Of a stretch of 64,000 nt of DNA, positions 61,944 through 64,000 are shown piece after piece. Positions within the stretch are counted from its first letter, which is position 1. Each line of letters begins with the position of its first letter. Position numbers and translations under genes: made by a program. The notes below the pieces were generated by a model that searched no databases, was not told the DNA's origin, and was given only the letters and a program-made list of their open reading frames with translations. The stretch covers positions 1 through 64,000 of the forward strand of contig VGFQ01000002.1 of the NCBI GenBank assembly GCA_016868815.1, read 5' to 3'. This DNA comes from Bacteroidota bacterium. GTDB taxonomy: Bacteria; Bacteroidota; Bacteroidia; Chitinophagales; Chitinophagaceae.

Positions 61944-62225
61944 ATGGAGATTTTCCTCGATACAAGGCTTGTACGTGCCGAACAACGGTACCTCTCCAAT
62001 CGTGTGGGAGACGAGACCATCCTGCTCGACTTGCAGACAGGCGATTATATAGCACTCAACGACACCGCCGCCAGTATTTGGGAAAGGTTGCAACAGCCCC
62101 ACACCGTGCAGGAACTGTCAGCATCCCTTGGCCTGACCTTCGATGTAGCTCCTGACCAATGTCTGGCAGAGACGCTTGATTTTCTCCGCGGGATAGAAGC
62201 CCTTCATTTGCTGGCACCCGCCTGA
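61944..62225 (+). CDS. PqqD-family (RRE) protein, lasso-peptide B1-like
   Basis: Small protein (93 residues) with the PqqD/RiPP recognition element fold. An initial strand (VGDETILLDLQTGDYIALNDTAASIWERLQQP) is followed by a helix-rich tail (VQELSASLGLTFDVAPDQCLAETLDFLRGI). In RiPP pathways this element binds the precursor leader and hands it to the protease. The ATG at 61944 is chosen for its 10-base spacing from hldD and its match to family N-termini. It is followed by the B2-type gene after 11 bases, the usual B1-B2 order in lasso clusters. Confidence 0.85.
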   Translation: MEIFLDTRLVRAEQRYLSNRVGDETILLDLQTGDYIALNDTAASIWERLQQPHTVQELSASLGLTFDVAPDQCLAETLDFLRGIEALHLLAPA

Positions 62226-62236
62226 GCAGATACGGC

Positions 62237-62680
62237 ATGTCCATCCGGAAACGCATACGTACATACAATACATCCACGCAGCTGGACCGTCAGCTCTTTG
62301 CCCTCACCATGATTGCCTGTCCCTTTTTTCGGGTGGCCCTGCTGGCCATGCCCTTCTCAAGGGTACTGGCATGGCAGGGGGTGCCCGGGGAGGAAACTAC
62401 GGAGTTGCCCGACCCTGGCTCACTGGCCTATCGAAAGGCTATGCATGTGGCCTTGTTGCGTACAGCCCGCTACTTTCCATGGGCAGCCAACTGCTATGCG
62501 TTGTGCCTTGCGGGCAAGTTTCTTTTGCGCAAGCAAGGAATTTCCTCCACCCTTTATCTGGGTTTTTACAAGACCCCGGAAGGCTGCCATCAAGGGCATG
62601 CCTGGCTTCGGTCTCATGATACCTGGATTTCGGGTGGGGGGCAGCGGTATCTCTACTGCGTACATTCGTGCTATAGCTGA
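62237..62680 (+). CDS. lasso-peptide B2-type protein (transglutaminase-like fold)
   Basis: Predicted leader peptidase of a lasso-type RiPP, 147 residues, PF13471-like. The catalytic set appears as Cys86 (in AANCYALCLAGKFLLRKQG), His121 and Asp128 (in HQGHAWLRSHDTWISGG). The spacing of the Cys from LLRKQG matches the C..LLRRRG pattern of B2 proteins. The N-terminal helical part (residues 1-60) replaces the usual hydrophobic segment. With the PqqD-like gene immediately upstream and an asparagine-synthetase-like gene downstream, it completes a B1-B2-C set. Confidence 0.85.
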   Translation: MSIRKRIRTYNTSTQLDRQLFALTMIACPFFRVALLAMPFSRVLAWQGVPGEETTELPDPGSLAYRKAMHVALLRTARYFPWAANCYALCLAGKFLLRKQGISSTLYLGFYKTPEGCHQGHAWLRSHDTWISGGGQRYLYCVHSCYS

Positions 62681-62706
62681 AAAACCAACGACCAGCAGTA
62701 ATCGGC

Positions 62707-63858
62707 ATGGGGATCTGTCTACATATGATGGTAAAGAATGAAGCCCCCCGGTTGCCACAGCTCTTCGCGTCGCTTGGAACGATGGTAGATGCCTGTGTGG
62801 TGTCTGACACCGGCTCTACAGATGATACCATCGCCTGCATATGTTCATGGGCTGATCGTCTAGGAATACCCTGTCAGGTGGAGAACCATGCCTGGAAAAA
62901 TTTTGCGCATAACCGCAACCTCGCGTTGCAGGCTGCCTACAAAGCCCGGCGCGATGGCTTTCATGACTGCAGCTGGCTGATGGTCATCGATCCGGATGAG
63001 GTGTTGCAAGCGGAAGATCTAGCATGGAAGGCGGGCCTGATCCGTGGGGAGTCCTATTCATTGCATGTCCGCGCTGGCGGCACCTCAGTGTGCCGCCCTT
63101 TTCTGCTAGACATCACCGCTACGGAATGGCGTTGGCAGGGTCTTATCCACAACTGGGTGGAAAGCCTTCCGCCCGGTACACCATTTAGTTTTTTAGAGGG
63201 GGTCGCACTACAGTCCAGTGTATTTGTGGGTGCTAAGTCGCACGCCTACTGCTCACCTGTAGAGAAGGCCGAGGAAGACCGGCGGCTGCTTCTGGAGGAA
63301 TTATCCGGCTCGCCCTTGTCGATGCGTAATGCTCATCGATGGTTTCAGCTTGCCTATGTTTGCCAATTGGCGGGGCGACATCGAGAAGGGATGGAACGAT
63401 TGTCTTGCTTATGGGCATCTTCGGAGGTGCATCCTGAGATCCGTTATGCGTCCGCCATCCTGGCTTCTAAGTCCGTTCGTGCCACCAACGGTACGCATGA
63501 CGAAGCGTTATCTCTTCTTCATCAGGCTCGCTTATGGGAGCCTCATCGTTGGGAGGCATCCTATTATATTTCAGGCCTTATGCGGGAGGCTGGCGATGCT
63601 GCGGCAGCCCTGGAGGCCCTTCCGGCAGTCGGTCTGATGCCGCCCCGGCTGAACGGTATTTTCTGGATGGAGCACGACCTATACACCTGGAGGGTGTCTT
63701 ACGAGCGCGCCTTTTTGCTCTACCAGACGGGCCGGTGGCAAGAGGCTTCCAAGCTGGCGACCTCGCTTATGGAACGTTCCATTCTGCCACCTGCTGAAGC
63801 AGGATTCCTGCTTGCCTTGCTACAGCGGATAAGACAAGAGACCAGTACATCGAACTGA
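62707..63858 (+). CDS. GT2 glycosyltransferase with helical-repeat C-terminus (SunS-like layout)
   Basis: Cytosolic-looking glycosyltransferase of 383 residues. The GT-A domain shows LHMMVKNEAPRLPQLFASL (2-22), VSDTGSTDDT (32-41) and the metal site DPDE (95-98). The C-terminal part (about 205-380) consists of TPR-like helix pairs, e.g. WFQLAYVCQLAGRHREGMERL, SYYISGLMREAGDAAAALEAL and AFLLYQTGRWQEASKLA. GT2 plus TPR is the layout of peptide S/O-glycosyltransferases such as SunS, and also of some unrelated enzymes. Its place between B2 and the asparagine-synthetase-like gene suggests that a peptide is glycosylated. Confidence 0.8.
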   Translation: MGICLHMMVKNEAPRLPQLFASLGTMVDACVVSDTGSTDDTIACICSWADRLGIPCQVENHAWKNFAHNRNLALQAAYKARRDGFHDCSWLMVIDPDEVLQAEDLAWKAGLIRGESYSLHVRAGGTSVCRPFLLDITATEWRWQGLIHNWVESLPPGTPFSFLEGVALQSSVFVGAKSHAYCSPVEKAEEDRRLLLEELSGSPLSMRNAHRWFQLAYVCQLAGRHREGMERLSCLWASSEVHPEIRYASAILASKSVRATNGTHDEALSLLHQARLWEPHRWEASYYISGLMREAGDAAAALEALPAVGLMPPRLNGIFWMEHDLYTWRVSYERAFLLYQTGRWQEASKLATSLMERSILPPAEAGFLLALLQRIRQETSTSN

Positions 63859-63879
63859 TCGCTTCCAAGGCTTCTGCCT

Positions 63880-64000
63880 ATGAGTACCATCTTTGGCATA
63901 GTAAGGCGCGAAGGCCCTGCCACCCGCGGGGATGCAGGTACGCGTATGTTCTCTGCCATGGATCACTGGCAAGCCGACCACCGCAGCCAGTACGAAGAGG
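63880..64000 (+). CDS. asparagine-synthetase-like protein, lasso cyclase candidate, 3' end cut
   Basis: Only the first 40 codons are visible. The opening MSTIFGIVRREG followed by a helix with MFSAMDHW resembles the glutaminase-like N-terminal domain of asparagine synthetase B. Residue 2 is Ser instead of the nucleophilic Cys, as in lasso-peptide macrolactam synthetases (McjC-like). The ATG lies 21 bases after the glycosyltransferase stop. The synthetase domain and everything after it lie outside the window, so this is partial evidence. Confidence 0.65.
   Translation, partial: MSTIFGIVRREGPATRGDAGTRMFSAMDHWQADHRSQYEE

Follow-up and report, generated by a model that had tools for sequence, protein, structure and literature searches.

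A lasso-peptide gene block with an embedded glycosyltransferase of predicted SunS/ThuS fold in one genus of the Chitinophagaceae

The window analysed here, 64,000 nucleotides long, comprises the first 64,000 bases of contig C2 (VGFQ01000002.1) of a Bacteroidota genome of the family Chitinophagaceae (G000 in our numbering; 2.85 Mb in 33 contigs), and its right edge cuts into a block of lasso-peptide genes that includes a glycosyltransferase. Four genes of this block lie on the forward strand at the edge: B1 (61944–62225; 93 amino acids [aa]; Pfam PqqD, 2.3e-16), encoding a PqqD-family leader-binding protein, i.e. a recognition element (RRE) of ribosomally synthesized and post-translationally modified peptides (RiPPs); B2 (62237–62680; 147 aa; NCBIfam lasso_biosyn_B2), encoding a transglutaminase-like leader peptidase; a family 2 glycosyltransferase gene (GT2; 62707–63858; 383 aa), assigned by Pfam and by fold, whose product has a tail of tetratricopeptide repeats (TPR) and the motifs DTGSTD and D-x-D (DPDE); and C (63880–65787; 635 aa), encoding an asparagine-synthetase-like lasso cyclase with Ser2, assigned by alignment and by NCBIfam NF033535 as the best model. 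The gaps are 11 (B1-B2), 26 (B2-GT2) and 21 (GT2-C) bases. A preliminary description of the window, made from its letters, had placed four genes, all pointing the same way and 11–26 bases apart, in a Bacteroidota host, and the coordinates and the Pfam/NCBIfam assignments agree with it. Only the first 121 bases of C (63880–64000) are in the window, the remainder extending beyond the edge to 65787. On the contig, which continues the window numbering, three genes outside the window follow: the precursor gene A (65819–66013, forward strand; 64 aa, GTG start), an HPrK-type kinase gene (66048–67025, reverse strand) and a PF14907 nucleotidyltransferase gene (67003–68274, forward strand). The coordinates of the last two are the limits of their open reading frames (ORFs), the true starts probably being slightly further in. 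ProC, PyrG and YidC are encoded after the nucleotidyltransferase (contig C2 was read to 80000). The joint recurrence of the block genes in other genomes of the genus is more than chance.

B1 scored 60.3 bits with Pfam PqqD (cut-off 23.4), as expected of a leader-binding RRE protein, and B2 scored 49.6 bits with Transglut_core3 (cut-off 26) and 56.6 bits with NCBIfam lasso_biosyn_B2 (NF033537, cut-off 33). Cys86, His121 and Asp128 of B2, already pointed out in the preliminary description, are invariant in the 6 aligned copies (a broken copy in genome G308, discussed below, was excluded). A sequence search of the PDB with B2 found no match up to an expected value (E) of 1, and the structure model of B2 had a predicted local distance difference test score (pLDDT) of 77.0; a transglutaminase fold is suggested by the Pfam and NCBIfam matches together with the order of the Cys-bearing helix and the His/Asp strands in this model. 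The full C protein scored 117.8 bits with Pfam Asn_synthase (cut-off 21). It starts with Met-Ser rather than Met-Cys, and both Ser2 and the ATP loop SGGLDSS are found in all 6 aligned sequences. With Ser2 and a precursor gene close by, C does not fit an ordinary Cys2 asparagine synthetase, the outcome that would have counted against a lasso cluster.

The precursor gene had been expected beyond position 64000 or elsewhere, and was found 1.8 kb past the edge. The 64-aa ORF had no family match in Pfam, NCBIfam or PHROGs at the thresholds used. Searched against 99 genomes (own genome included), it had relatives in four congeneric genomes, with E 1.9e-13 to 6.3e-8 and with C and kinase genes adjoining in every case; the remaining matches, self aside, all had E > 0.008. 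Two more precursors, that of G311 (missed by similarity) and that of G320 (E 0.147), were identified by their position in the locus. Counted from the Gly taken as residue 1, the cores are GPTPGTLENMTFSYKSI (G000), GPTPGALENFTFSNKSI (G317), GPTPGTTENSTFSDKSG (G296 and G308), GPSPGTQENFTYSDKSG (G298), GPNSGKPEGPTTDGSQ (G311) and GPSTGKDETGFPSYLPS (G320). The motif GPxxGxxE is present in all seven, with G1, P2, G5 and E8 invariant, and none of the seven contains Cys. Among 979 small ORFs (25–95 aa) in the seven loci the motif occurs in 6, all of them the precursor, the seventh copy lying inside a longer ORF. Glu thus stands at position 8 in every precursor, within the core positions 7–9 where an Asp or Glu had been anticipated, if the core starts at this Gly. 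The leader has Trp at -17 (5 precursors) or -16 (2 precursors) and Pro three residues later, a W-x-x-P arrangement that resembles the leader motif YxxPxL with its Tyr(-17) and Pro(-14) (PMC10368454). For the final 35 codons, nonsynonymous/synonymous divergence (dN/dS) was 0.18/0.98 for G000-G317, 0.13/1.12 for G296-G298, 0.13/1.56 for G308-G298 and 0/0.12 for G296-G308, the precursors of G296 and G308 being near-copies and not independent. Judged by these values, the precursor is a translated gene under purifying selection.

The start codon of the precursor is GTG in G000 (contig C2 65819, L002:4820) and, by likeness, in G317, and ATG in the other five. A GTATCTTTA box lies 26 to 52 bases upstream of the precursor start in G000 (contig C2 65792-65800, L002:4793-4801), G296, G308 and G298, and G317 has a near-match; the box resembles the -7 promoter element of Bacteroidota. 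A core start after Ile-Leu, with Ile at -2, was considered as an alternative and retained for G311 and G320 only; it would move the Glu of G000 to position 10.

The GT2 protein scored 25.2 bits with Pfam Glycos_transf_2 (cut-off 23.3) and 28.9 bits with TPR_19 (cut-off 25). The 5 full copies aligned all have DTGS[ST]D, while the D-x-D motif (DADE; DPDE in G000) and a His-Asn pair occur in all 6. An AlphaFold2 model built from a six-row alignment had a pLDDT of 83.7 and a predicted template modelling score (pTM) of 0.76. The six best PDB chains found by Foldseek with this model are all SunS or ThuS (E 2.6e-14 to 1.0e-12; template modelling [TM] scores 0.54–0.59 by query length), the best of them with E 2.6e-14 and TM 0.58 by query and 0.54 by target, and the next match, TarS, followed at 5.7e-07; the predicted fold is therefore that of a glycosyltransferase with TPR. 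In a sequence-profile search the best glycosyltransferases were GmaR (1.7e-11) and, as a weak match, SunS structures (2.5e-07, 3.4e-07), amid many TPR proteins. SunS and ThuS glycosylate side chains of RiPPs, and GmaR glycosylates flagellin. GT2 shares with SunS/ThuS a glycosyltransferase domain and a helical tail, but at 14–16% identity, and the glycocin precursor has Cys, in contrast to the substrate here. Since the precursors lack Cys, a Cys-linked sugar is excluded and Ser/Thr is the likely acceptor of the GT2 sugar. The His-Asn pair, in place of His-Glu, was considered as a special catalytic alteration and rejected, as it is also found in other GT2-TPR proteins: with near-copies merged and the group's own included, 54 had His-Glu, 21 had His-Asn and two had other pairs.

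A GT2 homolog (E <= 1e-5) was found in 8 of the 41 genomes of the genus, own genome included (G000, G317, G318, G308, G311, G320, G298 and G296), and in all 8 it stands beside lasso genes. B2 directly precedes GT2 in 7 of the 8 and C directly follows it in 7 of the 8, the exceptions (G298, G296) being contig ends. Wherever both edges share one contig, the block sits between RfaD and ProC. The RfaD-ProC interval is 6.4 kb in G000, 8.5 kb in G311 and 10.6 kb in G320, the three filled clusters measured. RfaD (E <= 1e-80) was detected in 12 of the 41 genomes, 8 with and 4 without GT2; in these 4 (G203, G321, G286 and G309) the RfaD and ProC matches end about 12–111 bp apart, no block is present, and GT2 is absent from the whole genomes. 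Since the RfaD-ProC site is empty in 4 genomes, GT2 is part of the block and RfaD is not: the unit consists of B1-B2-GT2-C-A-kinase-nucleotidyltransferase, flanked by RfaD and ProC as mere neighbours. A role of RfaD as sugar supplier of the cluster was rejected accordingly, as RfaD stays between PurL and ProC in the 4 genomes without the block. A single gain of the block is neither supported nor rejected by an RfaD tree of the 12 genomes, on which the block pattern needs 2 changes and 6 of 9 inner branches are open.

The kinase has the residues of the HPrK type: across 6 kinases, His126, Gly141, Gly146-Lys147-Ser148 (with the P-loop Lys-Ser) and Asp164-Asp165 do not vary. They agree with those listed for the kinase BsfK, which acts on Ser3 and accepts Thr there too (PMC10368454), while the target of the lasso kinase in paeninodin is the C-terminal Ser (PMC9266682). 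Thr or Ser is present at core position 3 in 6 of the 7 precursors, and all 7 have Ser within the last two positions. Since both are present, both phosphorylation sites are possible. Among ten other lasso loci of the family (L044–L053), the likely precursor ends in Ser in 9 and in Thr in one; these precursors were picked by a leader/acceptor pattern without requiring a terminal Ser, and an antisense ORF in L047 was left out of the count. The ten loci have W/YxxP leaders, and L052 has two near-identical precursor copies, counted once. Another annotated nucleotidyltransferase of a lasso cluster is PsmN, which we take to belong to the PF14907 family. In pseudomycoidin, PsmN attaches hexoses to the C-terminal phospho-Ser (PMC9266682). 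Export genes differ among the clusters. A 590-aa ATP-binding cassette (ABC) exporter is encoded between kinase and nucleotidyltransferase in G311 and G320 (L057:2336-4108 and L058:12271-14043; 53% identical to each other). Exporter status was judged in six clusters, those of G318 and G296 ending at contig ends. The G320 interval also contains extra genes for a methyltransferase and a family 4 glycosyltransferase (GT4) between nucleotidyltransferase and ProC (L058:15298-17089), which would fit a longer glycan there.

No GT2 of this family was found in the 10 other lasso loci of the family (B2 over cut-off; about 7–9 kb to either side, contig permitting), and of two weaker B2 matches one (G204/L054) had no lasso genes in view. 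In the phylum there were 40 B2 matches in 36 of 395 genomes; 29 further loci among them held no such GT2 within 1.5 kb to either side, as far as the contig reached, a range that a more distant GT2 would escape. No such GT2 was found either in 21 lasso loci (16 kb stretches) from the family of a Paenibacillus genome, in which 120 of 197 genomes were B2-positive; these 21 loci were also the ones screened, by simple motif, for other glycosyltransferase families. Among 396 genomes of the order (E <= 1e-20), only G000 and two weaker GT2 matches without B2 within 1.5 kb were detected. Since the other seven carriers were not in this sample and no more than 4 candidates were scored per genome, the result says only that GT2 is rare outside the genus. 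A single-sequence scan of named genomes found nothing. Among the best 80 of 336 GT2 relatives from named genomes, B2 was in the stretch for 2, both apparently the contigs of G320 and G311.

Taken together, these data indicate that the locus is probably a complete lasso-peptide block with tailoring enzymes, whose product would be an O-glycosylated, phosphorylated lasso peptide and whose GT2 would work in the manner of SunS/ThuS. The proposal of the preliminary description, a glycosylated lasso or related peptide, is thus supported by the lasso genes, the predicted SunS/ThuS fold and the block edges, with the chemistry deduced from sequence and model. B1 would bind the 64-aa precursor at its W-x-x-P leader and pass it to B2, which would remove the leader at a predicted site before Gly1. 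C would then link the N-terminal Gly1 to Glu8, with the tail NMTFSYKSI presumably trapped in the ring. The kinase may phosphorylate either the penultimate Ser or Thr/Ser3. That phosphate may be acted on by the PF14907 protein, as in pseudomycoidin. From its fold and its membership in the block, GT2 would put a sugar on a Ser/Thr of the tail.

Several observations weigh against this reading. Three of the specific family models scored below their cut-offs: B1 reached 45.2 bits with NCBIfam lasso_PqqD_Bac (cut-off 80), C 226.6 bits with the lasso cyclase model NF033535 (cut-off 525) and GT2 10.6 bits with the SunS model TIGR04195 (cut-off 350), far short of it; the kinase, too, scored below the cut-off of the specific NCBIfam model. 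The Thr expected near the leader end was not there, position -2 being, with Gly as residue 1, Asp in G000 and Ala, Ser, Ser, Ser, Leu and Leu elsewhere; since Thr(-2) is lacking, the cut site is one that we infer, and if the residue before Gly were residue 1 the ring would have 9 members. The T-[FY]-S motif at core positions 11–13 is found in the five GPxPG precursors and not in those of G311 and G320. Ser is last but one in 6 of the 7 precursors and last in G320, so the paeninodin-type terminal Ser is generally absent. In G308, the B2 gene stops short of His121/Asp128 and runs in-frame into GT2 through sequence free of N (L056:3762-5234, G308:C84); a fusion, a deletion or an error in the assembly may account for this. 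Finally, a nearby ABC transporter had been predicted, and the block of this species has none: in G000, G317, G298 and G308 no ABC exporter is present in the block, kinase and nucleotidyltransferase genes lying side by side, and the best G000 match to the exporter of G311 and G320 is 26% identical and located elsewhere in the genome.

Other explanations give GT2 a different substrate. It may extend or cap a phosphate or hexosyl-phosphate near the C-terminus of the lasso peptide rather than the bare peptide. PsmN, which adds hexoses to a phosphorylated C-terminal Ser in pseudomycoidin (PMC9266682), is a precedent, and the near-terminal Ser is kept in 7 of 7 precursors as against 5 of 7 for the tail T-[FY]-S. 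However, nine of the ten other lasso loci of the family have a kinase match and none of the ten has such a GT2 within about 8 kb; kinase-bearing clusters therefore do not need GT2, and as its predicted fold matches that of glycosyltransferases acting on peptide side chains, we regard this route as rather unlikely. GT2 might instead serve another pathway, such as a surface glycan or another protein, and merely travel with the block, since GT2-TPR proteins often occur in unrelated contexts: B2 is missing from the stretch in 78 of the best 80 (of 336) loci in named genomes. Its place between B2 and C, at distances of 26 and 21 bases, its company of lasso genes in 8 of 8 carriers and its absence from the 4 genomes with an empty site make such a role improbable.

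The tailoring may also be combined, or the product may not be a lasso at all. It is possible, and we suggest this tentatively, that two sugar routes operate at once, an O-linked sugar on the tail from the SunS/ThuS-fold enzyme and a phosphate plus a nucleotidyl or hexosyl group near the C-terminus, with an extra residue shifting the Ser of the kinase to the penultimate position and no exporter in the block of G000 and its group of relatives. Alternatively, a lasso-derived block might make an unthreaded branched cyclic or a linear modified peptide, possibly intracellular. The exporter-less clusters of G000, G317, G298 and G308 would suit such a product, and linear phosphorylated peptides made with a kinase and an NTP-transferase exist (PMC13381572), but C is retained with an intact ATP loop, as is the invariant Glu8, and we consider this outcome very unlikely.

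In comparison with known systems, the glycosylated, phosphorylated lasso product favoured here would join an established kind. Paeninodin- and pseudomycoidin-type clusters have the same A, B1, B2, C and HPrK kinase genes (with the nucleotidyltransferase in pseudomycoidin) and the same kinase residues (PMC9266682, PMC10368454), whereas here an extra GT2 lies between B2 and C, Ser is last but one, and exporter and Thr(-2) are lacking. The bsf cluster of Bradymonas sediminis likewise encodes B1, B2, C, kinase and nucleotidyltransferase and has a residue other than Thr at -2; its kinase targets Ser3, the position occupied by Thr/Ser in 6 of 7 precursors of the block, but it has an ABC exporter, and the seven genes listed for it include no glycosyltransferase (PMC10368454). 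A glycosyltransferase among lasso genes had been called unusual in the preliminary description. It is less so than supposed, as the lasso clusters of Butyrivibrio fibrisolvens also hold a GT2, an HPr kinase and a nucleotidyltransferase (PMC7533575); these belong to the Bacillota and are likened here by their published description. The position between B2 and C in Bacteroidota was not described in the literature titles and abstract openings covered. Glycosylation of Ser in a lasso peptide is listed in a review (PMC13352647). Since glycosylated lasso peptides and GT2 in lasso clusters are already in print, the block belongs to an established kind, of which its layout of genes is a distinct variant, so far seen in a single small bacterial group. 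A glycosylated lasso peptide, like the product proposed here, is also reported by Sun et al. 2025 (Chem. Sci., doi 10.1039/D5SC00605H), in which one residue is said to be glycosylated iteratively.

The literature searches brought up few glycosylated lasso peptides, and their sugar-adding enzymes are little studied. The exporter-less blocks raise the question whether the product is exported at all and, if so, by what route. If the two sugar routes did coexist, the tail sugar could be a second plug holding the thread. In one 6.4-kb interval, with an empty site in relatives, the locus unites the substrate with a glycocin-like glycosyltransferase and two further tailoring enzymes. Since they share a single interval that is empty elsewhere, the roles of GT2, kinase and nucleotidyltransferase are separable gene by gene, and the seven precursors are natural variants of the acceptor sites.

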